From Ignavibacteria bacterium (lineage in GTDB: Bacteria > Bacteroidota > Ignavibacteria > Ignavibacteriales > Melioribacteraceae): a DNA stretch of 38,835 nucleotides. A model generated the notes under the pieces. That model ran no database searches. It was not told where the DNA came from and saw nothing but the letters and a program-made list of their open reading frames with translations. The stretch is from NCBI GenBank assembly GCA_009773205.1, contig WPAE01000041.1:1-38835 (forward strand), read 5' to 3'. The stretch's first letter is position 1; each line of letters begins with the position of its first letter. Below are positions 12,451 to 38,650 of this stretch, piece by piece. A program made the position numbers and the translations under genes.

Positions 12451-13077
12451 ATGGCAAGATACACTGGTTCAAGTTGCAAATTGTGCAGAAGAGAAAAGAC
12501 GAAACTTTTTCTTAAAGGCAGTAAATGTCTTTCAGAAAAATGCCCGCTTGAAAAAAGAAATTATGCGCCGGGTCAACATGGACTTTCCAGACGCACCAAG
12601 TTTTCAGAGTATGGTGTTCAATTAAGAGAAAAGCAGAAAGTAAAAAGAATTTACGGATTGTTAGAAACACAGTTTCGCAATTACTTTGAAAAAGCTAACC
12701 GCCAAAAAGGCGTTACAGGTACAAATCTTTTAAAACTTTTGGAAAGAAGATTGGACAATGTTGTATTCCGACTTGGTTTTGCACCTTCAAGAAAAGCTGC
12801 ACGCCAGCTTGTTTTGCACGGGCATTTCACAATCAACAACCAATTAGTTGATATTCCTTCTTATTTGCTTGCTGCCGGAGATGTAATTACAGTTCGTGAG
12901 AAGAGCAAAAAGTTAGATACAATTCACAATTCTTTAAGAAGAACCAAAGAAAACGTTTATTCCTGGCTTTCTGTGGATAAAGCTTCTTTAAGCGGTACAT
13001 TTATGAATGTTCCGGAAAGAGAAGATATACCATTGACCGCTAACGAACAACTCATAGTTGAGTTGTATAATAAGTAA
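12451..13077 (+). CDS. rpsD: 30S ribosomal protein S4 (zinc-binding form)
   Basis: S4 nucleates 30S assembly and, in E. coli, regulates the alpha operon. The N-terminal region has four cysteines in the C-plus arrangement (C9, C12, C26, C31) within [10 protein letters not shown] and [12 protein letters not shown]. The S4 RNA-binding domain follows ([30 protein letters not shown]). It has 208 residues. AGGAG precedes ATG 12451. Confidence 0.97.
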
Positions 13078-13101
13078 AAAATTATAAAGAGGATACTATA
13101 A

Positions 13102-14097
13102 ATGAGTAATCCATTCATTAAAATGCCGGAAGGAATTATTGTTGATGACTCTTCCAGCAATGAGAAGTTCGGAAGATTTTTTGTACAACCACTTGAAAGA
13201 GGTTTTGCCGTTACTTTAGGTAATGCTATGAGAAGAGTTATGCTTTCTTCTTTAACTGGCGCTGCTTTTACGGCTGTTAAGATTGAAGGTGTTTTGCATG
13301 AGTTTTCTACGATTCCCGGAGTGGTTGAAGATGTAACAGAAATCATTCTTAACTTAAAAAAAGTTAGAATGAGACTTAATAATAAAAAAACTACCAGCTG
13401 CGAAATTTCATTAAATGGAGCGAAAGTACTTACTGCTGTTGATATTCAGAAAGCATGCCCGGATATTGAAATTCTTAACCCACAGCAACACATTGCACGC
13501 CTTAATGCAGAAGCAAAGCTGAATATAGAGTTTCGAATTGGGATTGGTAAAGGTTATGTGCCAAGCAGCGAACAAAAAATTACCGAATCTACTATAGGTA
13601 CTATCCCAATAGACTCTATCTTTACTCCAATTGTTAATGTGCGCTACGATATTGAAAACGTTCGTATTGGAGAAAGGAACGATTTTGAAAAATTGACTCT
13701 CGAAATTACTACTGATGGTTCAATTTCTCCATCCGAAGCTTTATCCAATTCTGCCAAGATTTTGAAAGATCACGTCGCCTTGTTTATCAATTTCGAGTCT
13801 GAACCGGAAGAAGAAAAAGTAGAAAATGAAAAAGATTTGGAAGCTGAACGACTTCGTAAAATTTTATTAACAAGTGTTGATGATTTGGAATTAAGCGTTC
13901 GCTCACATAACTGTTTAAAAGCAGCAAATATTAAACATTTGGCCGATCTTGTACGTAAAGACGAAAGCGAAATGCTGAAGTTCAGAAATTTTGGGCGCAA
14001 GTCTTTAGCTGAATTGCTCGAAATTGTTGATAACTACGGACTTGAGTTTGGAATGGACGTAGATAAGTATATTAAAGATAAACCAGAAAACAACTAG
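13102..14097 (+). CDS. rpoA: DNA-directed RNA polymerase subunit alpha
   Basis: The alpha dimer scaffolds RNA polymerase assembly. The N-terminal domain (to about residue 230) has the conserved FVQPLERGFAVTLGNAMRR and IEGVLHEFSTIPGVVEDV. An acidic linker follows. The C-terminal domain (about 255-320) binds UP elements and activators and has LELSVRSHNCLKAANIKHLA and FGRKSLAELLEI. Length is 331 residues. It is the next-to-last gene of the operon. Confidence 0.98.
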   Translation: MSNPFIKMPEGIIVDDSSSNEKFGRFFVQPLERGFAVTLGNAMRRVMLSSLTGAAFTAVKIEGVLHEFSTIPGVVEDVTEIILNLKKVRMRLNNKKTTSCEISLNGAKVLTAVDIQKACPDIEILNPQQHIARLNAEAKLNIEFRIGIGKGYVPSSEQKITESTIGTIPIDSIFTPIVNVRYDIENVRIGERNDFEKLTLEITTDGSISPSEALSNSAKILKDHVALFINFESEPEEEKVENEKDLEAERLRKILLTSVDDLELSVRSHNCLKAANIKHLADLVRKDESEMLKFRNFGRKSLAELLEIVDNYGLEFGMDVDKYIKDKPENN

Positions 14098-23177: not shown

Positions 23178-23264
23178 GCGGAAGTGGTGAAATTGGCATA
23201 CACGCTACTTTGAGGGGGTAGTGCCCGTTAGGGCGTGCGGGTTCAAGTCCCGCCTTCCGCACCA
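23178..23264 (+). tRNA. tRNA-Leu (anticodon GAG)
   Basis: A class II tRNA with a long variable arm. Acceptor GCGGAAG (23178-23184) pairs with CTTCCGC (23254-23260); discriminator A and an encoded CCA follow (23261-23264). The anticodon stem CTACT/GGTAG holds the loop TTGAGGG, giving GAG at 23212-23214, which reads CUC and CUU. The T arm is GCGGG-TTCAAGT-CCCGC. Unlike the two glutamine tRNAs here, its CCA end is genomically encoded. Confidence 0.96.
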
Positions 23265-23340: not shown

Positions 23341-24171
23341 TTGGTGCTAAACTTGCCGCTGCTTACAAACGAATCTCTTCTTAACTCGCTTTTACTTGGC
23401 TTTTTTATTGCCTTTGCTATTGTGTTTCTTTCTTATAGAGTAAAGTTTTTAACATTTAGTGGTTCTGTTGCTACTTTTTTTCTTGCTGGTACAATTTTTA
23501 GCCTTGGCGGAGTTAAATGGAGCGTGCCAATTTTAACATTCTTTATTCTCACAAGTATTCTTTCCAAACTTCGCAAAAAGAAAAACGCAGAGATAGAATT
23601 GTTTTTTGAAAAGAGCAGCGTTAGAGATCATTTCCAAGTTTTAGCAAATGGCGGCATAAGCGGCGTTTTAGTTGTTTTGAATTTTTTCTTTCCTGATGAA
23701 ATTTTTTATTTATTGTATCTTTCTTCGCTTTCGGCAGTTTGCGCCGATACTTGGGCGACCGAAATAGGAACTTGGAAAAGAACAGTCACGTATAACATTT
23801 TGAACTTGAAACCAATTGAACAAGGAGTTTCAGGCGGAATCTCTTTGGTAGGTACATTTGGATCTTTTGTTGGCGCATTGATAATTACTTTCTCTGGTGT
23901 GTACTGGAATAGTTTGCCTCTTACTCAATATTTTTTATTGATAATTTTTACCGGAATGCTCGGAAGTATTTTTGATAGTTTTCTCGGCGCAACCGTGCAA
24001 TCTCAGAATAAATGTAATGTCTGCCGCAAAGTTGTAGAGCGCGAAATTCATTGCGGCAAGGAAGCTGATTACCACAGCGGATGGAAATGGATTAACAACG
24101 ATATGGTAAACTTTATAAGCGGAGCTGCAAGCGCCGCAGTTTTGATAATTCTCGTAAACATTTTGAATTGA
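23341..24171 (+). CDS. DUF92 family integral membrane protein
   Basis: A 276-residue polytopic membrane protein of the DUF92/TMEM19 family. The signature SLSAVCADTWATEIGTW is present, along with GSVATFFLAGTIFSLGG and GVSGGISLVGTFGS. About seven membrane segments are visible. Family members include the plant phytyl-phosphate kinase VTE6, so a prenyl or lipid phosphate kinase role is possible, but it is not proven for bacterial members. A cytoplasmic loop near the C terminus has CNVCRKVVEREIHCGK, with three cysteines. TTG 23341 is the likely start; GTG 23344 is an alternative. It ends 4 nt before the TPR gene. Confidence 0.85.
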   Translation: MVLNLPLLTNESLLNSLLLGFFIAFAIVFLSYRVKFLTFSGSVATFFLAGTIFSLGGVKWSVPILTFFILTSILSKLRKKKNAEIELFFEKSSVRDHFQVLANGGISGVLVVLNFFFPDEIFYLLYLSSLSAVCADTWATEIGTWKRTVTYNILNLKPIEQGVSGGISLVGTFGSFVGALIITFSGVYWNSLPLTQYFLLIIFTGMLGSIFDSFLGATVQSQNKCNVCRKVVEREIHCGKEADYHSGWKWINNDMVNFISGAASAAVLIILVNILN

Positions 24172-24175
24172 GATA

Positions 24176-27139
24176 ATGAAAAAAATTATAGTTCTTTTTA
24201 TTTCGCTTACTTGCATTTTTGCGCAACCTGTAACGGAAAAGTTCTCGCAAGCGCACAAAGCTTTTGAGGATAATAATTATTCTTTGGCATTGAAACTTTT
24301 TAAAGAAATTAACGCCGAGGGCAAGTTAGAACAGCAGCAGTTAGCAGCGGCTAAATTCTTCTCTGCAGAGTGCTTTCTAAATTTAGATCAATTAGATGCT
24401 GCTGCTGTTGAGTTTGAAATATTTCTGGATGAATATAAATTATCGAATTACAGAGCGACCGCACTTTACAAACTTGGCAGTATCTACTTTACTAAAAGAG
24501 AATACAGAAAAGCACGTGAACGATTAGCTGCACTTACTTCAGAATTTCCATTCAGCGAGTTTCATGGCTCTTCATTTTATTGGATGGGCGAAACTTATGC
24601 CTCCGAAAACAAATTTGTAGAAGCAGAAGAAAACTTTCGTGAAGCAATTGCAAATAAGAGAACGAATAAATATGTAGTTAATTCAATTTATTCACTTGCT
24701 CAGCTTTATGAAAAATCCAGCAGTTACAGCCAAGCAATATCAAAATATGATGAACTGCTTACTTATTACAAGTTAAGTCCGCTTGCACCTAAAGCACAAT
24801 TACGAATTGGCGTTTGCTACTTTTACCAGCAAGATTATGATAATGCAATTTTAGAATTAACAGACTCCGAAATAAAGTTTCTTTCGTTAGACGAAATAGC
24901 AGAGGCAAAATTCTTCCTTGCTAATTCTCATGCACGTTTGCAAGAATATGATGAAGCTTCGCAGATATTAAATGAATTAGTCTCAAATGTAACAGACCAA
25001 CAATTTCTAAACCGAATCCAGTTCAGTAAAGCGTGGATAGATTTTCAGCAAACAAAATACATTGATGCTTTTACCAAGTTTAAGTCTTTGAGTGAATCAT
25101 CTACAGATTCTCTTAAAATATTGTCTCTTTTCTGGAGTGGAGAATGCAAGCGATATTTAGGCGATTCAAAATCTGCCGATACAATTTTCAAAAATTTTAT
25201 TGATAAATATCCTTCGCATAGATTAGCGGCTAAAGCTCAACTTGGAAGAGGCTCTGTTTTTATTTCTCAGAACAATTCTGCCGATGCCGAAGAAGCGTTA
25301 CGAAACGCAACAATTTCAACTGATAAGCAGACTAAAACTAAAGCTTACACAATGCTTGGAGAATTGAGATTGAGCGCTAAGCGGTACAATGATGCATCAA
25401 GATATTTTTCTGAAGCAATAAAGCTTAATCCGGATCAGCAAGATTTAAGAAACAGAGCGCAGCTTGGTTATGCAGTTTCAGAATACTTCTTGAATAAGCT
25501 TAGCGATGCAGAAAAAAATCTAACTGAGCTTAAAGACAGAGATAAATCTTTTGAAAGCGATAAGGTTAATTTTTATTTGGCAGAAATTTCCTTTGCTTCG
25601 AAAAAGTACAGCGCGGCTCTAAAACACTATAATCTTATAAAGACAACTGATAAACCCATTCTTCGCCAAACCATATTAGGTAAAGCATACACGCATTTCA
25701 ATATGAAGGATTTTGCTAATTCAATTTTCTTTTTCAATGAATATATAGAAAAGCATAGCACAGAAAAAAATTTGGCTGAAGTGAAACTAAGGTTAGCAGA
25801 TAGTTATTTTGGCTCTAAGAACTTCGATAAAGCAGCTTCAATCTATAAAGAATTATTTTCCAGAGACAGGCTTAACGCGGATAACGATTTAGCATTTTAT
25901 CAATACTGTCAGTCTTTATTCAAAGCTGGAAAAACAGACGAAGCAAAAGATGCCTTTGAAGAATTGCAGCACAAATTTCCAAGGTCAAAATATACCGATG
26001 AAGCACAGTATGTTATCGGCTGGATAGATTTTCAGAAAAGTGATTACAATTCAGCAATTGCAGCTTATCGTAATTTAATAAAGCGCTATCCTCATTCAGA
26101 ATTAAATCCAATTGCCATTTACAACATTGGAGACGCATTTTTCAATCTGGGCAGTTATGATTCTTCAATTGTTTATTATTCACGAGTTTTAGAGATGTAT
26201 CCAAACTCTCAGTATGTTCTTGATGCTGTAACCGGAATTCAGTACGCATATGTTGCAAAAGACCAGCCGGAAAACGCAATCTCGTTTATTGATTCTTTTG
26301 TTTCCGCGAATGTCAATTCAAAGTTTAATGATCAGATGTTTTTTAAGAAAGGCGATCTATACTATTCAATTGATAATTATAATGCAGCAGCTAACATTTA
26401 TAAAGAGTTTATTTCAAAATACCCTTCGAGTAGTTTAATTGCTAATGCTTATTTCTGGATAGGAAAATGTGCTGCTAATTTAAGGAATGAAACTGAAGCA
26501 ATTAAGAATTACAATTTAGCAAAGCAGCGCTCTCCAAAATCGGATATTGGAATTTCTGCTACGCTGCAACTCGCTAAAATATATTTTGATAAAAAGCAGT
26601 TTGAGAGCGCTATTTTGGTATTGGATGAAACTATAGCGTTAAATTCAACTTCGAATCAAGTGGCTGAAATGCTATTTACTAAAGGAGAAAATGAGTCTAA
26701 AGCAAATAAAAAAGAAGAAGCGGTTTCTACTTTTGAGCAAATTGCAAATTACTACGAAGGAACAATATTTGCCGCTAAAGCTAACGTTGAGCTTGGGAAA
26801 ATTATGATCGAAAATAAAAATTTTGTTGAAGCTCAAGAATATCTTCGGGTGGTAAGCGAAAAAAGACTGGATGATGTTGGCGCACAAGCCCAGTATTTTT
26901 TAGGTGTTTCTTTTTTCAAACAAGGCAGTTTTAACGAAGCAGTTACAGCGTTTGTAAGAACACGTTCTATTTTTTCTGCTTACGATGAGTGGCACACAAA
27001 ATCTTTGTTAATGCTTGGTGACTGCTTTGTTCAGTTAAACGAAAAGACAAAAGCAAAGGAAATGTACCGCGCGGTTTTAGCACGCAATCCCGAAGGTGAG
27101 TATGCAGCCGAAGCAAAAAGAAAGTTGAGAGGTTTATGA
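24176..27139 (+). CDS. Large periplasmic TPR-repeat protein
   Basis: 987 residues with an N-terminal signal peptide (MKKIIVLFISLTCIFAQP) and then tetratricopeptide repeats almost to the end. Many repeats have the outer-membrane TPR style seen in BamD and CpoB: FPRSKYTDEAQYVIGWIDF, YPHSELNPIAIYNIGDAFF and YPNSQYVLDA. Roughly 25 repeats can be counted. It likely acts as a scaffold in the periplasm or at the outer membrane. The stop overlaps the start of the beta-barrel gene (ATGATG), which suggests coupled translation and a physical partnership. Confidence 0.9.
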   Translation: MKKIIVLFISLTCIFAQPVTEKFSQAHKAFEDNNYSLALKLFKEINAEGKLEQQQLAAAKFFSAECFLNLDQLDAAAVEFEIFLDEYKLSNYRATALYKLGSIYFTKREYRKARERLAALTSEFPFSEFHGSSFYWMGETYASENKFVEAEENFREAIANKRTNKYVVNSIYSLAQLYEKSSSYSQAISKYDELLTYYKLSPLAPKAQLRIGVCYFYQQDYDNAILELTDSEIKFLSLDEIAEAKFFLANSHARLQEYDEASQILNELVSNVTDQQFLNRIQFSKAWIDFQQTKYIDAFTKFKSLSESSTDSLKILSLFWSGECKRYLGDSKSADTIFKNFIDKYPSHRLAAKAQLGRGSVFISQNNSADAEEALRNATISTDKQTKTKAYTMLGELRLSAKRYNDASRYFSEAIKLNPDQQDLRNRAQLGYAVSEYFLNKLSDAEKNLTELKDRDKSFESDKVNFYLAEISFASKKYSAALKHYNLIKTTDKPILRQTILGKAYTHFNMKDFANSIFFFNEYIEKHSTEKNLAEVKLRLADSYFGSKNFDKAASIYKELFSRDRLNADNDLAFYQYCQSLFKAGKTDEAKDAFEELQHKFPRSKYTDEAQYVIGWIDFQKSDYNSAIAAYRNLIKRYPHSELNPIAIYNIGDAFFNLGSYDSSIVYYSRVLEMYPNSQYVLDAVTGIQYAYVAKDQPENAISFIDSFVSANVNSKFNDQMFFKKGDLYYSIDNYNAAANIYKEFISKYPSSSLIANAYFWIGKCAANLRNETEAIKNYNLAKQRSPKSDIGISATLQLAKIYFDKKQFESAILVLDETIALNSTSNQVAEMLFTKGENESKANKKEEAVSTFEQIANYYEGTIFAAKANVELGKIMIENKNFVEAQEYLRVVSEKRLDDVGAQAQYFLGVSFFKQGSFNEAVTAFVRTRSIFSAYDEWHTKSLLMLGDCFVQLNEKTKAKEMYRAVLARNPEGEYAAEAKRKLRGL

Positions 27140-28725
27140 TGAAACAGTTATTTGTAATTGTGTTGCTTTTTACTTCGCTAATGTACTCTCAAAGTGAACA
27201 GCCTAATATTGAATTGCCAGACTTTATTATTACAGGAAAGCAGACAGTAGAAATCCCAGCAGCAATCAAACCTCGGACAGAGTTGATTTCGATATTGTCT
27301 AAAGACTTCTTTACTCCGCAGTTTTCATCAGAAGATTTACCATTTCTTATTACATCAATACCTTCTGCCGTTTATCCAAGTATAAAAGAAACGGAAAAGT
27401 ATTTTGATGGGAACGTAAAAATTATGTTAGGCAAGGAAACAATGCCTTTCGGCTTGCTGAATCTTTCACATAGTTTTGCTTATTATTTATTCAACTTAAA
27501 AGCTTGGGGAGCAAACATTAGCGAATATAAACCTTACGCCGGTTATAATAATTCAGGTATTGTGCTTACAAATGATTTTTCTATCAGCACACGCTCGAAC
27601 TTTTTGCCCGGTACTAAAGTTTTAGCAGAGGCAAAGTATTACCGCGATTCATATCATTTATATGGCTCAAGAAAACCGGAGCAATTAAGAGAAAAAAATA
27701 ACGGCGAAGCAGGCATTTCGGTTTCGAGCATGTACAGCAAGATTTTTAATTTTGCTTTTGGAGCTTCGGGCAATTTGCTTTCACTTAACGAAAATAGTTT
27801 GAAAGAAACTAACTTAACTGCATTTGGCAAATTGAATTTCCGGTGGTACAAGTTAATGTTTGGCGGAAAAGCCGAAATAAATAGGCAAATGCTTAACAAT
27901 AATTTAAGCGGCAAGGGCAGCTATGATAATTTGAGTACCGAAACTTATGTAGAATTTATTCCTTTTAGCGGATTTTGGATTAACGGTGGATTTTATTTCA
28001 ATACAAATTCTACAAACAACATGTTTGCTCCTTTTGCAACTGCAGAATTAATGTTGGATAAAGGATTAGTTCTTGGCGCAGAGTTTAAGCCAAGAGTTGA
28101 ATTCTTCAGTTTGAAAAACATTTTCGATAAGAATTTATTTGCAACTCTCAGTGTAACAGATAATGTGTTTACTAAATACAATAACAATCTTAGCATAGCA
28201 ATTCGTTACGAATTTCAAAAACTCTTTTCGGTTTCACTCTCTGCTAATTATTCTAAGATTGATAACTATCTGTACTACGAAGATTTGCTACATATCGGCA
28301 AGTTTGATATCCGAACAGCAAACGATGTACAAGTTCTTAAAACAAAACTGAAGGTATATTTGCAGCCTGCTCCATTTGGTAATTTATTTGCAGAAGCTGT
28401 TTTTCAAGGTGTTACCAACGGTAATGATAAATTAATTCCTTACGAACCAACTTTTATTTCCTCGCTTGCGTATAACTATTCATTTAATAAAGTTTGGGGT
28501 TTTGGGCTTAAGTACAAAATTGCACTCGGCGCTTACACAGATATTATGAACACACAGAAGATTGATAACTATGTTGATATTTCTGCTTCGAGCTGGTATG
28601 AATTATTTAGTGGTTTTAAATTAACAACGTACTTTCAAAACATCTTGAATAGAAGTAACTTTGCTTGGAAACAATACCAGGAAAAACCATTCGACTATTT
28701 GATAGGCTTTGAGTATAGTTGGTAA
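27136..28725 (+). CDS. Putative outer-membrane beta-barrel protein
   Basis: 529 residues with a signal peptide (MMKQLFVIVLLFTSLMYSQ). A short region with IELPDFIITGKQTVEIP follows, then a long run of alternating hydrophobic and polar strands typical of beta-barrels. It ends FDYLIGFEYSW, with an aromatic last residue as in BAM-targeted outer-membrane proteins. No TonB-dependent receptor plug is recognisable, and I cannot assign a family. It is translationally coupled to the TPR protein and upstream of ExbB/TonB-like genes, so it may be the outer-membrane end of the same machine. Confidence 0.8.
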   Translation: MMKQLFVIVLLFTSLMYSQSEQPNIELPDFIITGKQTVEIPAAIKPRTELISILSKDFFTPQFSSEDLPFLITSIPSAVYPSIKETEKYFDGNVKIMLGKETMPFGLLNLSHSFAYYLFNLKAWGANISEYKPYAGYNNSGIVLTNDFSISTRSNFLPGTKVLAEAKYYRDSYHLYGSRKPEQLREKNNGEAGISVSSMYSKIFNFAFGASGNLLSLNENSLKETNLTAFGKLNFRWYKLMFGGKAEINRQMLNNNLSGKGSYDNLSTETYVEFIPFSGFWINGGFYFNTNSTNNMFAPFATAELMLDKGLVLGAEFKPRVEFFSLKNIFDKNLFATLSVTDNVFTKYNNNLSIAIRYEFQKLFSVSLSANYSKIDNYLYYEDLLHIGKFDIRTANDVQVLKTKLKVYLQPAPFGNLFAEAVFQGVTNGNDKLIPYEPTFISSLAYNYSFNKVWGFGLKYKIALGAYTDIMNTQKIDNYVDISASSWYELFSGFKLTTYFQNILNRSNFAWKQYQEKPFDYLIGFEYSW

Positions 28726-28731
28726 AAAAAT

Positions 28732-31413
28732 ATGAAGCCAGACGAATTACATAAACGGGTTGCCGAAATACTTGGCGTATCCGCTTCGCAGAAACACTTA
28801 GCATTTGATGTGCTGATTGAATCTGTATCTGGCATTCTTACCGAAGGCATCACTCTAAAAATTCCACGTATTGGATTTTTTCAGCTTAAAACGGATTCTC
28901 AAAAAGATAATTTTACAAAGCAGTTAATGTTTTCTTCGCTCCCCGAAGACTTTGATCCATCGGAAAAAATTCTTTACCACACATTTGATGTAAGCACAAA
29001 GTATAAAAACTCCGCAGAAATTGATTCACAGGTTTTCAGCATTGGTGTGGGAAAGCCGTTACTGCCTTTGCACGATGAAGAAAGTCTGCACGATTCTGAA
29101 ACTTCCTTTGCGATGCTCAGAAAGTCTATTGAAGAGCGTGTAAGAGAAATTTTAGCCGAATCGGATCAGATTCCAAACCTTAATATTTGGGAAGATTTAT
29201 ATTATAACAACGAAGATGATTTACACTTTGAGGAAGATATTTCTTCAAAACTTTTTGATTTGACTAAAGATTTACATTTTAATGAGGGAAGAATTATTGT
29301 AGATGCAGAAATTGAGCCGCAGCACCAAAACTTTTTGAATTCGCTGCTTTATAATGAAAAGCCCGAAGCCAGCGAAGAGTTTTTTGCCGAAGAGAAAAAG
29401 GAAGAATTTTCTTTCAACGGAAATTACGGTCGAGAGCAGTTTGCTGCTGATGATTTATATATAATTGATGAAACACAGCCAGAAAAAAATCTTTCTGTTG
29501 CTGATTTACTCGGCGATGTTGACTTGGAGCCGAAAGTTGTTTTAGATGATGACTTTAAGCAAGAGGTAATGAATATAGAACTTAAGCAGGTTATAGAAAA
29601 TGTTCCAATCTTAGAAGATAAAATAGAAATTTCGATTCCAGATAATTTTACTTCACAGGTTAAAATTGATTCTACTGATGAAATTTCTTCTCATTATTTT
29701 GTTGAAGAAATTGAATTTGGTAAAGAACTTGGGGTTGTAAAAGTAAAGAGTTCTGTGCCAACCGAAGAAGAAACTGAAGTTGATATTGAAAGCATCGAGA
29801 GCGCTGCTGTTTCAGATTCACACAGCGGCGAGGTTCTCCGAAGTCTGTTAAACGATGAGGAGCTTCCAGAGTCTGAAAATAGAAACTCTGAAATTACCAT
29901 TGAACCGCCAACTTCTGCTAAAGAGCTGCTAATTACTCTTAAAGAAAATATAAATGATGCAGATAAAAATGCTTGGGTTATTGCAGAAGAAGATCTTAAG
30001 GGAATAATAAATGATGAGTTGAAAGAGTATGATCACGAAAAAATTGCTAATGATAATTCCCGAGTACTGAATGATCTACTCGAAGATGCTTTTCATAGAA
30101 AAGTTGATATGGATTCCACCGATGAATCTGAAGAAGAAATTTCTGTTGATATTGCAAATGAACAAAACGCGAGTACAGAAAAAATTGAATGGAGCTGGGG
30201 AGACGAACTAAAAGAAGAGTTCGGCATTGGACAGGAAGAAGCCATTGAGATCTTACCGGAAAGCTCTTTACAATATGAAGAGGACGAAGCTGTACAATCT
30301 GAAACAGATAACCACAAATTTGATATAGAAAAAACACGGCGGGATTTATTTTCAAAGTTAGAAAAAACCCTTGCCCAAGAAATTACTTCACTTCATGAAA
30401 ATTATGATAATTCGTTTAATCATAAACATGTACAACAGCATACTCAATTTGAAAAATATGCTAATCTTAAACCTGAGTTAAATACAGAACTTAGAAAGAC
30501 AAAAACTCATGTGGAGGAAACAAAGCCGGTTGTTGAATTTAAGGATGAAAAAGTTATCCTTGATTTCAAAACACCGCCGCCCCGTTATGAATTTATAGAA
30601 GAAACGACTGCGCAAAATATTGAGCAAGATTTTCCTGATGAACCAGTTTTAACGAAGCCAAAGAGAATGACAATTTTGTTAGAGCGGACCGAGATAGAAT
30701 CAGCTGTAACAAATGCCGCAGAAGCACAAGGCGCTCTGTATGAAGAAGTGGCAACACCTAAGAAGTATCAAAATCATTTTGGAAAACTATTTGTTATAAC
30801 GCTTGCCTTTTTTATTGTTGTAACTTCTATTGCAGTTTATCTCTATATCAGAAATATATCCTCAGTTAATCAAGTTGAGGCTGATCAAACTTCTCAATTT
30901 GATAATCAAGTAGTTCCATCTACAGTTGATGATAATGCAGCAGTCCAAAATATAAGAGAATCACTTGGGTTAAATCCAGATGATTTTAGTGAATTTCCTA
31001 CTACTGCAACTCCACCAGAACCAATTAAAGAGGGAAATACTGTTGATGTTACAAAACTGTTACAAAAAGCCACTGATAATACCAAGCCCAAGAATGAAGA
31101 AATTGTGGAACAAGCGCAGCAAGAAGATTTAAGGAACAAATCTTTAGCTGCCAATACTGCTAAGCCCGCGGGCGAAACTCGTTTAAGTAATATGGTTTTC
31201 TTTGATGGAAAATCTTACAACTTTCAAATTTCTTCTTGGAAAAATAAATTGCTTGCGCAAAACGAAGTTGACCGTTTGCGTTCGCTCGGTTTTAACGCAT
31301 TCTTAGTCGAAGCGTTTTTGCCGGATAAAGGTGGCACTTGGTATAGAATAAGAATCGGCTCTTTTAAGTCAGAGCAAGAAGCAGTAGCTTTCAAGAAAAA
31401 AAATAGTTTCTAA
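28732..31413 (+). CDS. HU-like / transmembrane / SPOR-domain protein
   Basis: 893 residues in four parts. Residues 1 to about 80 resemble an HU/IHF-like domain of the HU-CCDC81 type (LHKRVAEILGVSASQKHLAF, then GITLKIPRIGFFQLK). A very long acidic, low-complexity region (about 100-680) is rich in Glu, Asp and Ser. One membrane segment (about 686-706, FVITLAFFIVVTSIAVYLYI) follows. The C-terminal end (about 821-893) is a SPOR domain with YNFQISSWKNKLLAQNEV and TWYRIRIGSFKSEQEAVAF. SPOR domains bind denuded septal peptidoglycan, so the protein likely has its N terminus in the cytoplasm and its SPOR end in the periplasm at division sites. It starts 6 nt after the barrel gene. Confidence 0.88.
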   Translation: MKPDELHKRVAEILGVSASQKHLAFDVLIESVSGILTEGITLKIPRIGFFQLKTDSQKDNFTKQLMFSSLPEDFDPSEKILYHTFDVSTKYKNSAEIDSQVFSIGVGKPLLPLHDEESLHDSETSFAMLRKSIEERVREILAESDQIPNLNIWEDLYYNNEDDLHFEEDISSKLFDLTKDLHFNEGRIIVDAEIEPQHQNFLNSLLYNEKPEASEEFFAEEKKEEFSFNGNYGREQFAADDLYIIDETQPEKNLSVADLLGDVDLEPKVVLDDDFKQEVMNIELKQVIENVPILEDKIEISIPDNFTSQVKIDSTDEISSHYFVEEIEFGKELGVVKVKSSVPTEEETEVDIESIESAAVSDSHSGEVLRSLLNDEELPESENRNSEITIEPPTSAKELLITLKENINDADKNAWVIAEEDLKGIINDELKEYDHEKIANDNSRVLNDLLEDAFHRKVDMDSTDESEEEISVDIANEQNASTEKIEWSWGDELKEEFGIGQEEAIEILPESSLQYEEDEAVQSETDNHKFDIEKTRRDLFSKLEKTLAQEITSLHENYDNSFNHKHVQQHTQFEKYANLKPELNTELRKTKTHVEETKPVVEFKDEKVILDFKTPPPRYEFIEETTAQNIEQDFPDEPVLTKPKRMTILLERTEIESAVTNAAEAQGALYEEVATPKKYQNHFGKLFVITLAFFIVVTSIAVYLYIRNISSVNQVEADQTSQFDNQVVPSTVDDNAAVQNIRESLGLNPDDFSEFPTTATPPEPIKEGNTVDVTKLLQKATDNTKPKNEEIVEQAQQEDLRNKSLAANTAKPAGETRLSNMVFFDGKSYNFQISSWKNKLLAQNEVDRLRSLGFNAFLVEAFLPDKGGTWYRIRIGSFKSEQEAVAFKKKNSF

Positions 31414-31428
31414 TTATTATGGAAGAAC

Positions 31429-32088
31429 ATGAATCTTACTGAAATAATTTTGAAGAACGGGCTGATGATTTTACCCATTTTCATTGTATTAGTCTTAGTT
31501 ATTCTTATTGTAGTAGAAAAATTTATTGTGATAAAAAAATCCAAGGTTAATGTTGGTTCTTTTACAATTAAGATTAGAGGCTTGCTAAAACGCAAGGAAA
31601 TTAATGAAGCAATTAATTATTGCACAGAAGAAAGATCTGCGGTAGCCAACATTCTTAAGAGAGGCTTGAGAAAATATAAATTTGGCAGAAAAAGAATTGT
31701 AGAAGCATTTGAAACTGCATCTAAACTCGAGATACTAAAACTTGAGAAGAATTTATCACCTCTCGCAACTCTTTCTAAACTAGCTCCTTTGATCGGCTTT
31801 CTTGGAACCATAGTAAGTTTGACTTTTGGATATTTCAAGCTGCAAGAAGCGCAAGCAGCAATTGATTTAACAAATTTTAATAACGAAATAATCGGTGCAG
31901 CTGCTTCATCTATTATGGGAATTATTGTTGGCATCATTGCTCTCGTATCTTACAATGTTTTGGTATCGGCAATAAAAAAAATAGTTTTTGAAATGGAAAT
32001 GGTAGCTACCGAAGTTATTGATGTACTCGATGATTCTGTTGCCTATTTTGCTGATACAGATATAACAGATGAGGAAGTTGAAAAGTGA
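31429..32088 (+). CDS. MotA/TolQ/ExbB-family protein, atypical
   Basis: 219 residues with three membrane segments (about 11-31, 115-138 and 156-180), the ExbB/TolQ topology. The family motif appears as LAPLIGFLGTIVSLTFGYF, with T127 at the position of ExbB Thr148. In the third segment, GAAASSIMGIIVGIIALVSYN, the conserved Glu (ExbB Glu176) is replaced by Gly, Thr181 by Ser, and the conserved Pro by Ile, by my by-eye alignment. ExbB forms the pentameric stator of the Ton motor. The next gene overlaps by 4 nt and has a TonB domain. No ExbD is present. Confidence 0.85.
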   Translation: MNLTEIILKNGLMILPIFIVLVLVILIVVEKFIVIKKSKVNVGSFTIKIRGLLKRKEINEAINYCTEERSAVANILKRGLRKYKFGRKRIVEAFETASKLEILKLEKNLSPLATLSKLAPLIGFLGTIVSLTFGYFKLQEAQAAIDLTNFNNEIIGAAASSIMGIIVGIIALVSYNVLVSAIKKIVFEMEMVATEVIDVLDDSVAYFADTDITDEEVEK

Positions 32089-32666
32089 AATTTGAATCTT
32101 CGATAAATTACCTGAAAGGAATTAGTTATTCTTCTTTTGCAGCAGTAATTCTGTTAGCCGCTTTCCTTTATTTAGCAACTGATAAAGTTTCCGAAAAATC
32201 TTTTGCGAATGCTGAAACAGCAAAACAAAATATTGAGCTGCAGAAAAAAATAAATGAGCAGGCAAATAAGATTCCACAAGTTAAAGCGGTTAATCTAAAA
32301 ACAGTTGAGAGTAATTCTAATGCCGAATCTGCTGTTGCCCAAGAAACTGAAAAGAAAGACGAAGTTAGAAAAATTAGCCAAAGAGAATTAGGGTTCGATT
32401 TAGATTTTGGTTCTGACCAGCCCAGAATAATTAAGAATTTTGTTTTGCCCGAAGCAAAGAACTTAGGAAGCGGAAGAGTAATCATGAAATTTCGGTTTTC
32501 GATTAGACCGGATGGTTCTGTCTCAAAAGTATTTCCGACTATGAAAGGCGATCCGGCTTTAGAATTGACAACAATGAACTTACTTAGAAAATGGCGCTTT
32601 GAAAAACTACCTGCGGCAGCAGATCAGATTGATCAAAAAGTAGAAATTAGTTTTCGGCCACAGTAG
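32085..32666 (+). CDS. TonB C-terminal domain protein (GTG start)
   Basis: 193 residues with a single N-terminal membrane segment (about 17-31), a short charged linker and a TonB-like C-terminal domain (about 120-193). The domain signature is GRVIMKFRFSIRPDGSVSKV, then ALELTTMNLLRKWRFEKLP and VEISFRP. TonB proteins carry energy from the inner-membrane motor to outer-membrane partners. Unlike TonB, the linker is short and not proline-rich. It starts at GTG 32085 within a GTGA overlap. Its last 20 nt overlap the convergent small gene on the other strand. Confidence 0.88.
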   Translation: MKFESSINYLKGISYSSFAAVILLAAFLYLATDKVSEKSFANAETAKQNIELQKKINEQANKIPQVKAVNLKTVESNSNAESAVAQETEKKDEVRKISQRELGFDLDFGSDQPRIIKNFVLPEAKNLGSGRVIMKFRFSIRPDGSVSKVFPTMKGDPALELTTMNLLRKWRFEKLPAAADQIDQKVEISFRPQ

Positions 32667-32943: not shown

Positions 32944-33453
32944 CTAAGCTTCCGAAGATTTATTTTTACTGTTTAGAATTTGCGCGCCTATTAATCCTCC
33001 AACTATACCAAAAATGGAATTAACAATAAGGTTATTAAATAAAATTGTAAAAGTATAAAGCCACGAGAAACCTGTTTCCATTAGTTCTTTACGTACAGTT
33101 TGAAAAATTTCCATTACTTGGTTTTTTAATTCTGGACTTAGAGGAAAATCTGCAATCATTCTTTGAAGTTCTGGGAAGGCAACAATAACATCATTTTGAC
33201 GGGTGATAAAAGTTACAAAAACTTCAAAGACTGTTCCAAAGAAAGCGGCTGTTAATCCAGTAAATAATCCAAAGACAAGTGCTTTTTTCATAGGAATTTT
33301 GTTTGTGGATTTGGATGCCTTTTGGTCCAGCCATAAAGAAAGAAATGCTGCGCCGGGAATTATCAAACAGCATGCAAAACTTTTAATTAAAGGAACTACT
33401 TGCAGAACTCCAGCAGCGAAGCCGCAAACCGCAGGTGAAATAAATTTTTTCAA
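32944..33453 (-). CDS. Integral membrane protein, DUF4199-like
   Basis: A 169-residue protein with about four membrane segments in two pairs separated by a soluble loop (residues about 88-125, with PELQRMIADFPLSPELKNQV). The layout recalls DUF4199 proteins of the Bacteroidota, but I would not insist on the family. The start overlaps the end of the DUF2085 gene by 4 nt, so the two are coupled. Confidence 0.65.
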   Translation of the reverse strand: MKKFISPAVCGFAAGVLQVVPLIKSFACCLIIPGAAFLSLWLDQKASKSTNKIPMKKALVFGLFTGLTAAFFGTVFEVFVTFITRQNDVIVAFPELQRMIADFPLSPELKNQVMEIFQTVRKELMETGFSWLYTFTILFNNLIVNSIFGIVGGLIGAQILNSKNKSSEA

Positions 33454-33911
33454 TTCTTTTTACTGTTTAATTCTTGAATTAGTTTTTTCAGAGCTGAGTA
33501 AAAATATAAAAATCCTGCTGAACCTAAAAGAAAGCCTGTAATGAAAGCTAAACTTTTTGAGTAGCTGTAAATGCCAAAAGCGCAAAGGAAAACATCTGCC
33601 AGCATTGGTGCAGAAGCAAATATAATAATTTTTAGAGGCGGTTCATTTCTATACAGAAAAAAAAGAGCTGCGATACTTGATATAAATAAACCGACGTAAA
33701 TTCCTGCACATCTTGAACAAACTAGCGAATGATAAACTGAATCGCCGAGTAATTTACTTTGCTGTTGATGGCAAACTAAAGAATAAGAGTTATGCATTAA
33801 GGGAACGAATAAAGTTAGTTGTGGAATTATGGGAACTAGCCATTCTAAAAAGACACCAAGAAGCCAAAATGCGAGTAAAAGAGTTACCGAAAAGCGAACT
33901 GCCAAACTCAT
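33450..33911 (-). CDS. DUF2085 family membrane protein
   Basis: A 153-residue protein with about four membrane segments. It carries the DUF2085 signature, a Cys-His pair (C47-H48 in YSLVCHQQQ) followed by VCSRCAGIYVG with C65 and C68. The cysteine/histidine set suggests metal or redox chemistry at the membrane, but the function of the family is unknown. It leads a small operon with the downstream membrane proteins. Confidence 0.85.
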   Translation of the reverse strand: MSLAVRFSVTLLLAFWLLGVFLEWLVPIIPQLTLFVPLMHNSYSLVCHQQQSKLLGDSVYHSLVCSRCAGIYVGLFISSIAALFFLYRNEPPLKIIIFASAPMLADVFLCAFGIYSYSKSLAFITGFLLGSAGFLYFYSALKKLIQELNSKKN

Positions 33912-33916
33912 AGGGT

Positions 33917-34762
33917 TTAATGCTGGAGTTGAAAAACAAAAATTGTAGAGCCTGTTAAAACATATAACTTAGATTTGAAAACACAAGCATCAACAATATC
34001 CTCCGTTATGTTTGGGTTTAACAAATTCATTTGCAGATTTGGTTCTGCTACAACTTTAGCTGCCAAAACATTTTTTTCATTCACGATTACAATGTTGTTA
34101 AAAAGAGAATTAAGGTTCTTCACTTCAAAAGGAAGTGGTACCTTCCGTATTCCATTTCCAAACTGATCGAATATGAAAAGAGTATTTTTCTCAGCGGTAA
34201 TCAAGTTGAGATTATTATCTAAACTCAACTTAAGCGGATTAGTTAAACGGAACGTGCCGGCATCTACGCCTCCAATTTCAGAAATAAATTCTCCTCTAAG
34301 ATTAAATTTTAGAATCCGTTGATTGTCAGAATCGAGTATATAGAAATCTCCTTGATTAGAAGTAGCAACAGAAGAAGGATATTTAAAAGCAAAACGTTCA
34401 TCGGCAGAGTTTTGCGTAGAAATTTGCGAGAGAAAATTTAAGTCCTTATCAAAAATTTGTATGCGGTTGTTGTTTTTATCGGCGACATAAACATTTAGTA
34501 CATTAGCAAAAACATCGGCCGGATTATCGAACGAGCTGTTATCCCAGCCATATCCGCCAATTGTTTTTATCACGTTACCAAGTGTATCTAACTTGATTAT
34601 TTCGTTTTTCAAATCATCACTTACAAATATTATTCCATAAGGATTTATCGAAAAGCTCCGCGCAGAACTAAAACTACCAATCTCTCCGGCGGGTATTAAA
34701 TTTTGCCCATAATTTACGATTGTAACTATGAGTAAAAATAACATGTAAACTTTGTTTTTCAT
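33917..34762 (-). CDS. NHL-repeat beta-propeller protein, exported
   Basis: 281 residues with a signal peptide (MKNKVYMLFLLIVTIVNYGQ). Several NHL-type repeats follow: GIIFVSDDLKNEIIKLDTLG, NVYVADKNNNRIQIFDKDL and DFYILDSDNQRILKFNLRGE. These form blades of a beta-propeller used for binding protein or carbohydrate. The repeats fade in the C-terminal third. It is divergent from the large repeat lipoprotein gene, with a 135-nt gap. Confidence 0.85.
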   Translation of the reverse strand: MKNKVYMLFLLIVTIVNYGQNLIPAGEIGSFSSARSFSINPYGIIFVSDDLKNEIIKLDTLGNVIKTIGGYGWDNSSFDNPADVFANVLNVYVADKNNNRIQIFDKDLNFLSQISTQNSADERFAFKYPSSVATSNQGDFYILDSDNQRILKFNLRGEFISEIGGVDAGTFRLTNPLKLSLDNNLNLITAEKNTLFIFDQFGNGIRKVPLPFEVKNLNSLFNNIVIVNEKNVLAAKVVAEPNLQMNLLNPNITEDIVDACVFKSKLYVLTGSTIFVFQLQH

Positions 34763-34897: not shown

Positions 34898-37800
34898 ATG
34901 AAAAAAAATATTTATGCATTTCTATTTCTCATACTTGTTATTTCCTCTTGTAAGCTAAAAGAAGACACAACGGGCCCAGATACAGATAAGCCCGGCGCAA
35001 TATCAACTACAATTAAAGTCTTAACTCCAAACGGCAACGAAGTTTTATCGGAAGGTTCATCCTACCAAATTACTTGGAGCGGAACGGGAACATCCCACGT
35101 GAAAATACAATACAGTGTTGATAACGGAACTTCTTGGTCTTTAATTGTAGATAGTTTGAAAAACACCGGAGTATATAGCTGGTTTCCAATTCCAAACACA
35201 ATTTCTAATCAATGCAGAGTGCAAGTTACCAGCGTTGATGGTAAAAGCACAGATGCAAGCGATAATGTTTTTTCGATTATTAGAAACAGCAATCAGAGCT
35301 TAAAAATTTCTTCTCCAAAAGAAAAGGAAGAGTGGGAAGGTGGAAGCGCTAAACAAATTAAGTGGTTCAGTTCTGGTATTGATTCTGTAAAAATTGAATA
35401 TACAACTAACAATGGCATCAGGTGGAATTTGGTTGCCGTAGATAAAAAAAATACCGGTATTTATTATTGGGAGCCGGTGCCAAATACTCCATCCACCTTA
35501 GCACGTGTTAGAATTATGGATGCAAAAGATGGAGAGCCATCTTCAGAGAGCGAATTATTTAATATTCTTCCAGAGCCAAAGATTAAAGTATTAGCCCCAA
35601 ATGGCGGAGAAAGAATTATTTCTAACACTAGTAGAAAAATTGAATGGATATCAGAAAACATTGAAAATGTTAAATTAGCTTATACAACTAACAACGGATT
35701 CAATTGGGTTGTAATCAAAGAATCTGTTCCATCTACAGGATTTTATACTTGGGACCCAGTTCCAAATGCAAATTCGCAGCTTTGTAAGATTCGTGTTTTT
35801 GATGCAAAAGATGGCGAGCCTTCGGATGTTTCTGACAGCACATTTACAATAACAAACCAAATTACTCAAACGCTCGAAGTTACTTCACCTAACGGTAATG
35901 AGAGATGGCAGGCAGGTACAAACCAGCAGATTACTTGGAGATCCAGCGGCATTGCAAAAGTTAAGATTGATTTTACTTCTAACAACGGCTTAACCTGGAA
36001 TACAATTATTGATAAACTTGCTAATACCGGCGCTTATGAATGGAATGTCCCGAATTCGTTTTCCACCCAATGTTTAATAAGAATTACAGATGCAGATGAT
36101 GGTGATCCGGTTGATCAGAGCAACGGCTTGTTTAGAATTGTACCTAAACCGGAGTTAGCAGTTCTTTCTCCAAATGGAGGTGAGACTTGGACAGCCGGCA
36201 AAACTGATACTATAAAGTGGAAATCTACTGGAGTAGAAAACGTAACAATTGAATATACTCCTAACAATGGAATTAACTGGTTTACAATAATTGAAAAAAC
36301 TCCTTCGAGCGGAAGCTATGTAACAAGTTTTTCGACTGCTGGAACTCAATTCAAGATCAGAATTACTGATAAAGAAAATGGTTCGCCACAAGATGAGAGC
36401 GATGGGACATTTACTGTAACTCCAGAGCCAAAAATTGTAGTGCTTGAACCAAATGGAAAAGAAGAGTGGTATTCCGGGTCATCGAACAATATAAAATGGA
36501 CTTCTACAAATATTGAGAATGTAAAAATTGAATACACAACAAATAATGGCGCAAGCTGGAGTGTTATAATTTCATCAACACCAAGTACAGGCGTTTATGC
36601 CTGGAAAAACATTCCGAGCAATATTAGCTCTTTACAATGCCGAATAAGAGTGAGTGATGCTATTGATGGCATTCCTTCTGATGTTTCTGATGAAAACTTT
36701 AGCATACTTACTTATGGCGTTCAGTTAATTAAAGTTACCAAACCTAACGGCGGAGAAAGCTGGGTTGCAGGTTCAACTCAAGTGATAACTTGGGACGCTG
36801 CCGGTATTCAAAATGTCAAGATTGAATACACGCTTAATAATGGCATTCAGTGGAATGTAATAACCAACAGCACGCCAAGCACGGGTTATTTTACTTGGGC
36901 TCAAATACCAACTACAAGTTCCACAAATTGTAAAATTAGAATAAGTGATGCTGCCGATAACTCTCCTTCGGATGAGAGCGATCAATTTTTTACCATAGAA
37001 CCGGAGCCAATTATTAAAGTAATTACTCCTAAAGGTGGAGAAGTATGGACAAGCGGCACAACTCAAGAAATTAGATGGGAATCTCAGAATGTAGCCAATG
37101 TTAAGATTGAGTATACTACCGATGCAGGCGCTAACTGGAATACTATAATTGGTTCTACTCCAAGCATCGGGTATTTTGTTTGGAAATCAATTCCGAATAT
37201 TAATTCTCTTCAATGCAGAATAAGAATAAGCGATGCAGCAGATGGAAATCCATTTGCAGTTTCAGAAAATAATTTTCAGATATCTAACCAAGTTACGCAG
37301 AGTATAAGAGTTACATCTCCAAACGGTGGAGAAAATTGGAGAGAGCGGCAGTCGCAAGCTATTAAATGGGATTCTCAAGGAATCACATCTGTTAACATAG
37401 AATTTACAACAAATAATGGAAATACTTGGACTTCTATTGTAACCAATCACTTGAGTTCAGGTTCATATCAATGGCAAATACCTGCCGGAATAAATTCTAT
37501 TCAGTGTAAAGTTCGAGTTTCTGATGCAGCAGATAATGATCCATCTGATGAAAGTAATTCATCTTTTTCAATTCAGCTTACGCCAGAAATAACGAAAATA
37601 AATTTTCCAACAAACGGAGCTAATATAATTGCCGGCGAACAGATCAATATCCAGTGGGTTTCCAAAGGCATAAGAAAAGTTAGAATTAGATATAACAGAA
37701 ATGATTTAACTCAAACTGCTGATTGGTTTACTTTGGTTGATAGCGTAGACAATTCCGGCTCGTTCCCAACTACATTTAAGCATGATCCACTTGCAACTAC

Positions 37801-38650
37801 TTATGTAGTAGAAATAAGTGCAACAGATGGTAGTGCATCATTATTAAGTGGCAGTTTCAAAGTATTGCCTCCACCTTCTGTAACTCTTATTGCTCCAAAT
37901 GGCGGAGAGCAATGGTTAGTATCAAAGAGAGATGCGGCTCCAACTGACTTAATCAACTATCATCCTTATGAAATTAAGTGGAAGGCTACTAATGCTGAAA
38001 AAGTAAAAATCGAATGGTCAACTAATGGCGGCGGAAAATGGTATACGGTTCCCGATGCTGAATCAACCGAAAATGATGGCTCCTTTATATGGGCGCCTGG
38101 CAGAATAGTTAAAGATTTTGATACTAATGGTAATCCGATAGTTCCCGATAGTTCTGATAACTGTTTAATTAGAATTAGCAGTTCAGGTGGTGCTTCAGAT
38201 ATGTCGAATGATGTTTTCTCAATTCACAAGAGCAAAAAAATTCGAATTAAGTACCCCAACTCAGGGGAAGATTTTTATCCACCAGAGGATTTGACAAATC
38301 CCAAAGCATCAAAAAATTGGCCAATGTTAATTGATTGGACTAGTTATGCTGTTACATCGGTAAATATTTATTACAGTTTAGATAACGGCGTAACATGGAA
38401 GGCACTAGCTACTAATTACCAATCTACAGGTGCATTTGCCTGGGATTTTGTTTTCGGTGCATTAGCAGAAAGTAGAATTTCTACTCAAGGATTAATAAAA
38501 ATTGAAGATGCAGCTCTTGAATCACCCACTTTACCTCCAGGCAAGAGGATTTGGGATGTGAACGATGTACCTTTCTGGTTAAATATAAAAAAGACAAGTG
38601 GAAAAGTTATTCCGCTTGAAAACCAAATTAAAAGCAGCATTAAAAAATAA
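34898..38650 (+). CDS. Large lipoprotein with twelve Ig-like (Kre9/KNH-type) repeats
   Basis: 1250 residues. A lipoprotein signal ends in VISSC with C18 lipidated, so the protein is probably tethered to the outer membrane. Twelve repeats of about 90-100 residues follow from about residue 38 to the end. Each begins like VTSPNGGExWxAG and continues ITWxSxGIxNVKIEYTTNNG, then STPSTGxYxW, CxIRISDAADGxPSDxSD and a final FxI strand. This resembles the Kre9/KNH fold found in surface proteins. Repeats 1-9 are regular; 10-12 are diverged and contain insertions. No sorting domain is seen at the C terminus. Surface adhesion or carbohydrate binding is an inference. GAGG lies before ATG 34898. Confidence 0.9.
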   Translation: MKKNIYAFLFLILVISSCKLKEDTTGPDTDKPGAISTTIKVLTPNGNEVLSEGSSYQITWSGTGTSHVKIQYSVDNGTSWSLIVDSLKNTGVYSWFPIPNTISNQCRVQVTSVDGKSTDASDNVFSIIRNSNQSLKISSPKEKEEWEGGSAKQIKWFSSGIDSVKIEYTTNNGIRWNLVAVDKKNTGIYYWEPVPNTPSTLARVRIMDAKDGEPSSESELFNILPEPKIKVLAPNGGERIISNTSRKIEWISENIENVKLAYTTNNGFNWVVIKESVPSTGFYTWDPVPNANSQLCKIRVFDAKDGEPSDVSDSTFTITNQITQTLEVTSPNGNERWQAGTNQQITWRSSGIAKVKIDFTSNNGLTWNTIIDKLANTGAYEWNVPNSFSTQCLIRITDADDGDPVDQSNGLFRIVPKPELAVLSPNGGETWTAGKTDTIKWKSTGVENVTIEYTPNNGINWFTIIEKTPSSGSYVTSFSTAGTQFKIRITDKENGSPQDESDGTFTVTPEPKIVVLEPNGKEEWYSGSSNNIKWTSTNIENVKIEYTTNNGASWSVIISSTPSTGVYAWKNIPSNISSLQCRIRVSDAIDGIPSDVSDENFSILTYGVQLIKVTKPNGGESWVAGSTQVITWDAAGIQNVKIEYTLNNGIQWNVITNSTPSTGYFTWAQIPTTSSTNCKIRISDAADNSPSDESDQFFTIEPEPIIKVITPKGGEVWTSGTTQEIRWESQNVANVKIEYTTDAGANWNTIIGSTPSIGYFVWKSIPNINSLQCRIRISDAADGNPFAVSENNFQISNQVTQSIRVTSPNGGENWRERQSQAIKWDSQGITSVNIEFTTNNGNTWTSIVTNHLSSGSYQWQIPAGINSIQCKVRVSDAADNDPSDESNSSFSIQLTPEITKINFPTNGANIIAGEQINIQWVSKGIRKVRIRYNRNDLTQTADWFTLVDSVDNSGSFPTTFKHDPLATTYVVEISATDGSASLLSGSFKVLPPPSVTLIAPNGGEQWLVSKRDAAPTDLINYHPYEIKWKATNAEKVKIEWSTNGGGKWYTVPDAESTENDGSFIWAPGRIVKDFDTNGNPIVPDSSDNCLIRISSSGGASDMSNDVFSIHKSKKIRIKYPNSGEDFYPPEDLTNPKASKNWPMLIDWTSYAVTSVNIYYSLDNGVTWKALATNYQSTGAFAWDFVFGALAESRISTQGLIKIEDAALESPTLPPGKRIWDVNDVPFWLNIKKTSGKVIPLENQIKSSIKK

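Follow-up and report, generated by a model that had tools for sequence, protein, structure and literature searches.

A conserved envelope-spanning operon of Ignavibacteria combines a TPR protein and a receptor-like barrel with Ton-type genes and carries an apparent ExbD-TonB fusion in one clade

Introduction

The closest described counterparts of the gene cluster analyzed here are the Tol-Pal and Ton systems. The cluster lies on contig WPAE01000041.1 of an Ignavibacteria bacterium; the entire contig, 38,835 nucleotides (nt) long, is the stretch of DNA that was analyzed (the window), and it belongs to a 4.14-Mb genome that we label G000. Open reading frame (ORF) coordinates place six genes on the plus strand, which encode, in order, a DUF92 protein, a tetratricopeptide repeat (TPR) protein, a barrel, a protein with HU and SPOR domains, an ExbB-like protein, and a TonB-like protein. 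A comparison with Tol-Pal shows a shared general plan, comprising an ExbB/ExbD-type inner-membrane motor, a TonB/TolA-type transducer, and a periplasmic TPR protein, as well as a DUF92 upstream neighbor like that at the tol loci of green sulfur bacteria. In contrast to Tol-Pal, the cluster contains no TolB or Pal, has a barrel as its outer-membrane partner, carries an extra SPOR/HU gene, encodes a TPR protein of about 1000 amino acids (aa), and possesses an ExbB that is not sister to TolQ. The Ton system is similar in the order of the motor genes, the SxxxH motif and C-terminal domain of TonB, the receptor-like barrel, and the TonB-box-like start of that barrel. Unlike Ton, the cluster has TPR and SPOR partners as regular members and no plug was found in it, and the clade that includes the window lacks ExbD and has a fused anchor in its place.

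Two further comparisons are relevant. A 2025 survey finds tol-pal loci to be lacking in Bacteroidetes and proposes PorE as a tether between the outer membrane and peptidoglycan that would fill this same gap (PMC12204202). PorE differs from the present cluster in being a single CpoB-TolB-Pal-like lipoprotein (PMC12204202); the sections of that paper considered here do not mention the operon, and neither SPOR nor Ignavi occurs as a term anywhere in its text. The HU-SPOR protein of the cluster resembles FtsN and DedD in having a single transmembrane helix and a C-terminal SPOR domain, but differs in its N-terminal HU domain and very long linker; it scores 21 bits against the FtsN model, far below the cut-off of 108, and its match to an FtsN structure is weak (0.0047). 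We found no paper on the operon in the open-licence literature, preprints excluded, which does not establish its novelty in print.

Results

Conservation of the operon

The cluster is one copy of an ancient, conserved envelope-spanning operon, and we regard it as very likely that its products form one functional unit. In a sample of 39 genomes of the order, own genome included, in which relatives' genes were taken as ORFs and labeled with profiles rather than by annotation (the loci of G003 and G016 being read from two contigs each), the barrel is present in 38, each time flanked by the TPR gene on one side and the HU/SPOR gene on the other. Named relatives of the barrel gene are Ignavibacteria, namely a Stygiobacter sp. 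contig with a barrel of 70% identity and a Melioribacter sp. contig with one of 46%. The window's genome is thus Stygiobacter-like, a genus assigned by NCBI to Melioribacteraceae, Ignavibacteriota. DUF92 is single-copy in 24 of the 39 genomes, G000 among them, and in all 24 it is just upstream of the TPR-barrel operon. In the window, the DUF92 and TPR genes are 4 nt apart, the TPR and barrel genes overlap by 4 nt, spacers of 6 and 15 nt precede the HU-SPOR and ExbB genes, and the ExbB and TonB-like genes overlap by 4 nt (GTGA). The features of the cluster are as follows:

23341-24171, + strand: DUF92 integral membrane protein, upstream partner (PF01940, 4.5e-63)
24176-27139, + strand: TPR protein, 987 aa, predicted periplasmic, with a signal-peptide-like start and CpoB/YbgF-like repeats (TPR_6, 1.9e-64)
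27136-28725, + strand: barrel, 529 aa, predicted outer-membrane, TonB-dependent receptor-related (profile against PDB; C-terminal aromatic residue)
27208-27237, + strand: TonB-box-like motif IELPDFIITG, barrel residues 25-34 (invariant columns of the barrel alignment)
28732-31413, + strand: protein of 893 aa with predicted HU domain, long linker, transmembrane helix, and SPOR domain (Pfam, profile, hydropathy)
28732-28974, + strand: HU-like N-terminal domain (profile against HU structure 3rhi, 3e-10, positions 2-81)
30787-30858, + strand: predicted transmembrane helix, residues 686-709 of the HU-SPOR protein (hydropathy scan)
31207-31401, + strand: SPOR domain (PF05036, 9.4e-10, above cut-off)
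31429-32088, + strand: ExbB-like protein with altered proton-path region (PF01618, MotA_ExbB, 1.4e-16)
32085-32666, + strand: putative chimera of an ExbD transmembrane segment and a TonB C-terminal domain, GTG start overlapping the ExbB stop (alignments; TonB_C match)
32085-32204, + strand: putative ExbD-derived anchor, about residues 1-40 of the chimera, aspartate lost (alignment z scores)
32220-32663, + strand: putative TonB-derived part (linker plus C-terminal domain), roughly residues 46-193, with an approximate junction (match to the cluster TonBs of G004 and G005)

Some of these domains are better supported by families of sequences than by the window's proteins taken singly. The HU match of the window's own protein is weak (HU-HIG, 0.0043, below the Pfam cut-off), and it is the profile of 35 orthologs that, in its positions 2-81, finds HU proteins of known structure at 3e-10. 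HU-CCDC81_bac_1/2 and SPOR matches occur together in one distant relative's protein (locus L164). At another locus (G091; L131, 7421-9009), a separate HU gene is followed by a SPOR gene with its own weak HU match at its start. The TPR protein exceeds the cut-off of the tol_pal_ybgF model TIGR02795 by a wide margin (292 bits against 90), but this score is driven by the repeats in a protein of 987 aa.

The motor genes are more variable than the genes that precede them. Among the 36 genomes readable past the HU-SPOR gene, 30 have ExbB-ExbD-TonB, three have ExbB and a short TonB with no ExbD (G000, G001, and G003), and three have TonB alone, with ExbB and ExbD absent from the operon (G025, G027, and G032; loci L065, L067, and L072). 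Relocation of the cluster ExbB in the last three genomes is unsupported by the tree, in which their other ExbBs group with Ton-type paralogs; the local motor has thus been lost rather than moved, and these genomes represent a second way of losing it. In the genome G034 (L093), a large TPR gene is followed directly by ExbB and ExbD, and its ExbB falls outside the cluster group of the tree.

Beyond these 39 genomes we inspected 40 loci, picked by hand from the listed hits and therefore not giving population frequencies: 20 from the same class (one of them, L144, from the window's family) and the remaining 20 from other parts of the phylum, a GTDB grouping that we take to be Bacteroidota in the wide sense. 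A TPR gene was found in 34 of the 40, a gene matching the SPOR/HU profiles in 26, ExbB plus ExbD in 21, and TonB in 26. When six unlabeled genes behind the barrel were searched against Pfam, one had HU and SPOR, two had HU only, two had SPOR below cut-off, and one had no match. In 19 further barrel loci of the phylum, likewise hand-picked, TPR is present in 17 (once with an ORF between), SPOR or HU in 8, ExbB plus ExbD in 6, and TonB in 5. These full and reduced sets suggest that the TPR-barrel pair is the core of the system, and that the motor part can be absent. An ORF resembling FolC, named from reading its sequence rather than from a family search, follows the cluster in 3 of the 10 loci listed gene by gene.

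The barrel profiles themselves reach further than the operon. A wide profile matches 374 of 395 genomes of the phylum, a figure that we do not use as an operon count, and about 101 of these matches (hand count) have E >1e-20; a narrower profile matches 280 of the 395. In four inspected genomes of family f26, the matches cover only the C-terminal part of the barrel, mostly in frames of 640-850 residues, and no match is full-length.

In the ExbB tree, the 42 sampled cluster ExbBs form one group (support 84/98), apart from eight ExbB-like paralogs and nine TolQ proteins of green sulfur bacteria, with long branches among the paralogs and TolQ. These results bear out much of a sequence-only reading of the stretch, which had described a compact single-strand cluster with a DUF92 gene 4 nt ahead: the ORFs lie where it had placed them, with gaps of -4 to 15 nt, and the domains it named were recovered as Pfam or profile matches, the barrel by profile similarity and without a Pfam hit. 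Its proposal of a single machine, together with its suggestion that synteny be sought in related genomes, is likewise upheld, as the genes are not scattered (TPR, barrel, and HU/SPOR are contiguous in all but one genome of the order), full or reduced forms recur across the phylum, and the ExbBs of the clusters group together.

Exopolysaccharide exporters such as PgaA, BcsC, and AlgK/AlgE pair TPR proteins with barrels. The position of the TPR gene upstream of the barrel as the most conserved core (38/38 in the order, then 34/40 and 17/19 in the wider loci) would accordingly suit a pair for polymer or protein export, or else a device of the gliding type to which a motor is attached, for which Myxococcus gliding offers a precedent in that TonB-like proteins and a TonB-box-like contact have been described there (PMC9389320). 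We consider such a function quite improbable. No polymer synthase was seen among the 18 window proteins scanned, the relatives' neighboring genes having been labeled with the window's own families only, and the similarity of the barrel is to TonB-dependent receptors, besides one weak match to the porin KdgM.

The barrel and its TonB-box-like motif

The barrel resembles the barrels of TonB-dependent receptors and appears to be plugless. No Pfam family matched the window's barrel; 36 members searched at E <=0.1 matched five families, the receptor-barrel model being found in 3 of the 36 and the Plug domain in none. The evidence for the relationship comes from profiles compared with PDB, where the narrower barrel profile matches TonB-dependent receptor barrels in their C-terminal part (8.7e-8, positions 426-510) and, weakly, KdgM (0.0025), while the wider profile gives 5.1e-11 over positions 440-527, all 25 matches listed being to TonB-dependent receptors.

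Of the 38 barrels with an N-terminus, 37 carry the motif [IV]ELP[DES]F[VI]I[TL]G immediately behind the signal peptide; the exception, G003 (L041), has Cys in place of the last Gly. An alignment of the 36 full-length barrels (the G003 fragments left out) has 12 invariant columns, of which six fall inside one 9-residue N-terminal stretch, a clustering with a naive chance of about 1e-6 when relatedness is ignored. The motif is weaker in distant relatives, where a short hydrophobic N-terminal strand is kept in many of 40 as judged by eye, and a comparable strand, TEIIVSATKT, occupies the corresponding position in a 664-aa receptor-like protein of the window's own genome. The TonB box, a short strand, binds TonB through beta-strand addition (PMC8928145). 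Compared with known structures, the cluster TonB profile matches TonB C-terminal domains, 2gsk being the best match; 2gsk and 2grx are receptor complexes. Taken together, these similarities make it fairly probable that the cluster TonB contacts the TonB-box-like motif of the barrel.

The same similarities could be read as those of a dedicated Ton transport system, in which ExbBD-TonB would open the receptor-like barrel for uptake or release, with the TPR protein supplying the plug separately and the SPOR gene being a passenger. The relation of the barrel to TonB-dependent receptors, a start comparable to that of the 664-aa protein, and the SxxxH motif, present in every cluster TonB outside the window's clade, all speak for transport. 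We nevertheless judge it unlikely, as Plug is absent among the Pfam hits of the barrel members, the SPOR/HU gene follows the barrel in 38/38 genomes of the order, and the window's clade has lost the proton aspartate and yet keeps these genes under purifying selection.

An apparent ExbD-TonB fusion and an altered ExbB

The window's cluster has no ExbD/TolR gene, and its last gene differs from an ordinary TonB. In the six genomes of the genus, this form occurs in G000, G001, and G003, whereas G004 and G005 have the normal set and the G002 contig ends before this point. The ExbD motif [AS]SL[TN]D is found in 30/30 cluster ExbDs outside the clade and in 0/3 clade members, and the TonB anchor SxxxH in 33/33 cluster TonBs outside the clade and again in 0/3 members. 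When the N-terminal 45 residues were compared with the 30 cluster ExbDs, the three clade members gave mean z scores of 7.3 (window), 9.1, and 10.0, against 1.2 (window), 1.7, and 1.1 with the 33 cluster TonBs. The match to the cluster TonBs of G004 and G005 spans residues 46-190, and the junction is approximate in that some pairwise alignments extend further towards the start; the Pfam TonB_C match of the chimera (4.4e-4, 21.1 bits) is under the cut-off of 24.6. An ExbD-like N-terminus followed by a TonB-like C-terminus suggests an in-frame fusion of the ExbD anchor to the C-terminal part of TonB, by what we infer to be a deletion that removed the periplasmic domain of ExbD and the anchor of TonB. 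Draft genomes may miss genes, but three of them agree in the loss of ExbD, each with contiguous ExbB and chimera frames.

The ExbB of the clade is also altered. Of 26 columns around two helices, 16 are invariant in the 30 other cluster ExbBs; seven of these are changed in all three clade members (V128, T129, G130, E156, T160, T161, and L165), eight are unchanged throughout the clade, and one differs in the window only. For TolQ-TolR, the aspartate D23 and the threonines T145/T178 have been proposed to handle protons (PMC8928145). Three other ExbD genes are present in the window's genome, one of them within an ordinary ExbB-ExbD-TonB set on contig C132. This set can be ruled out as a displaced cluster motor, as G004 has both sets.

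Losses of this kind raise the question of whether the motor genes of the clade are a decaying, functionless relic. The clade has neither ExbD with its aspartate nor the TonB anchor motif, and the stem branch of the clade's ExbBs is long in the tree (0.8, against 0.17-0.21 for the two nearest neighbors). On the other hand, the frames are intact in three genomes, and the other chimeras are 57-58% identical to the window's. Comparison of G001 with G003 gives dN/dS values of 0.08 for ExbB and 0.14 for the chimera, substitutions being close to saturation in pairs that include G000. Both genes are thus under purifying selection in this one species pair, and a relic is very improbable. The cluster in the window's clade is probably a passive tether between the inner and outer membranes.

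Relation to Tol-Pal

The cluster proteins include neither TolB nor Pal by Pfam, and no OmpA hit was obtained in the six, the cluster being where OmpA was searched. In the window's own genome, the TolB_N profile has no match, in a search of weak sensitivity; weak hits were obtained in 3/39 genomes of the order, one just above the cut-off. Across the phylum, TolB_N matches 24/395 genomes, 13 of which belong to family f26, where the FMO protein of green sulfur bacteria was found in all five genomes tested. These 13 hits are real tol loci. The order DUF92-TolQ-TolR-TolA-TolB-Pal-CpoB is seen in all 11 of the tolB loci whose contig reaches that far, one of which was domain-checked. In L168, L188-L190, L192-L195, and L197-L199, tol-pal lies directly behind a gene of 524-591 aa with a C-terminal DUF92 domain. 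Some green sulfur tol loci contain two Pal genes. Four other TolB_N loci, of 16 loci, were fetched and showed no Tol gene by phmmer.

The operon described here and tol-pal of green sulfur bacteria therefore appear to share the same genomic address in two lineages, which argues for, without proving, equivalent roles. The sequence-only reading had proposed a Tol-Pal-like machine. As a statement about role this is reasonable and gains from the shared DUF92 position, but the cluster contains no TolB or Pal, and its ExbB is not sister to TolQ in the tree. That reading had also asked whether Tol-Pal genes are missing, which is answered in part, as 35/38 other genomes of the order resemble the window's in lacking a TolB_N match, by a model that is insensitive. 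Its "TonB-like" gene does contain a TonB_C part but is an apparent ExbD/TonB chimera rather than an ordinary TonB with the usual ExbD gene beside it, and the energized device that it envisaged is probably correct for the ExbD-bearing relatives and doubtful for the window's clade, from which ExbD, the aspartate, and SxxxH have been lost.

The remainder of the window

Upstream of DUF92 lie an NlpC/P60 gene (22355-23035), which was unmatched in the relatives' loci, and a tRNA-Leu gene (gag, 23178-23264). A trio of minus-strand genes at 32944-34762, encoding a predicted membrane protein, a putative DUF2085 protein, and an NHL-repeat protein, follows the operon in most relatives. At 34898-38650 is a gene whose 1250-aa product matches Kre9/KNH, reelin-subrepeat, and BNR families and is probably a surface protein. 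The region 126-14094 is a ribosomal-protein operon, where the proteins scanned include SecY, RpoA, an M24 metallopeptidase, and matches to L3 and L2; about 9 kb with unrelated genes separate its end from the envelope operon.

Discussion

The best overall explanation, which we hold tentatively, is that the operon ancestrally encoded a septal Ton-type motor acting on a plugless barrel, and that it became a passive tether in the window's clade. The ancestral machine would have an inner-membrane proton motor of ExbB and ExbD that drives a dedicated TonB, whose C-terminal domain would cross the periplasm and capture the N-terminal TonB-box-like strand of a plugless, receptor-derived barrel. The TPR protein of about 1000 residues may serve as a CpoB-like periplasmic scaffold, and the SPOR protein would place the assembly on septal peptidoglycan, with its cytoplasmic HU end perhaps touching the nucleoid; these roles for SPOR, HU, and TPR are modeled on those of the same families elsewhere. 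Pulling on the barrel would draw the outer membrane inward at the constriction, the job performed elsewhere by Tol-Pal. In the window's clade, the fusion would have dismantled the motor, with ExbB altered at several otherwise invariant positions, leaving a unit that may work as an unpowered link from the inner to the outer membrane. We infer septal placement, a Tol-Pal-like role, contact through the TonB-box-like strand, and passivity from these comparisons, and a role in constriction is possible but falls short of probable.

Several observations weigh against this explanation. The genome G034 is 99% complete and has no barrel. The set is modular, in that SPOR and TonB occur without ExbBD in 10 of the 40 wider loci and all seven f30 loci among the 19 have no SPOR, ExbB, ExbD, or TonB label in the stretch shown. 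Structure predictions for the barrel are of low confidence (pLDDT 29 alone and 38.5 with two homologs). Single TonBs reach a z score of 5.85 against the N-terminus of the chimera, above the lowest ExbD value of 4.63. By matching to known motifs, we take T127 of ExbB to be the first proton-path threonine and T160/T161, now Ser, to be the second; the clade's ExbB thus keeps the first, and the other pair is altered only to serine, which retains the hydroxyl, so that the alteration of ExbB is milder than losing the aspartate. The cluster ExbB might also be served by an ExbD encoded at another locus of the genome. As to Tol-Pal, TolB_N matches only 13 of about 85 f26 genomes (hand count), at 25.7-42.6 bits against a cut-off of 22.4, and the lack of TolB_N matches in most of the window's order is therefore weak evidence. 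The expected placement of the cluster ExbB as sister to TolQ was not recovered in the tree, in a part that joins long branches, and the equivalence with Tol-Pal is accordingly one of analogy. Finally, green sulfur bacteria are one lineage, and the shared DUF92 position could be an inherited neighbor.

In its widest form, the proposal would be that, where FCB (Fibrobacteres-Chlorobi-Bacteroidetes) bacteria have no Tol-Pal, constriction of the outer membrane falls to another machine, in which a dedicated ExbBD-TonB motor grips a plugless, receptor-derived barrel by its TonB-box, the whole being organized by a giant TPR protein and by an HU-SPOR protein linking the nucleoid, inner membrane, and septal wall, and that this machine was turned passive by an ExbD-TonB fusion in one Ignavibacteria clade; as a whole, this is somewhat unlikely. 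The operon nonetheless provides a concrete and widely conserved candidate machine in a large group of bacteria, much of which has no recognized Tol-Pal. The clade with the fused, aspartate-free anchor may also serve as a natural experiment that would separate the functions that need proton flow from those that need only a tether.

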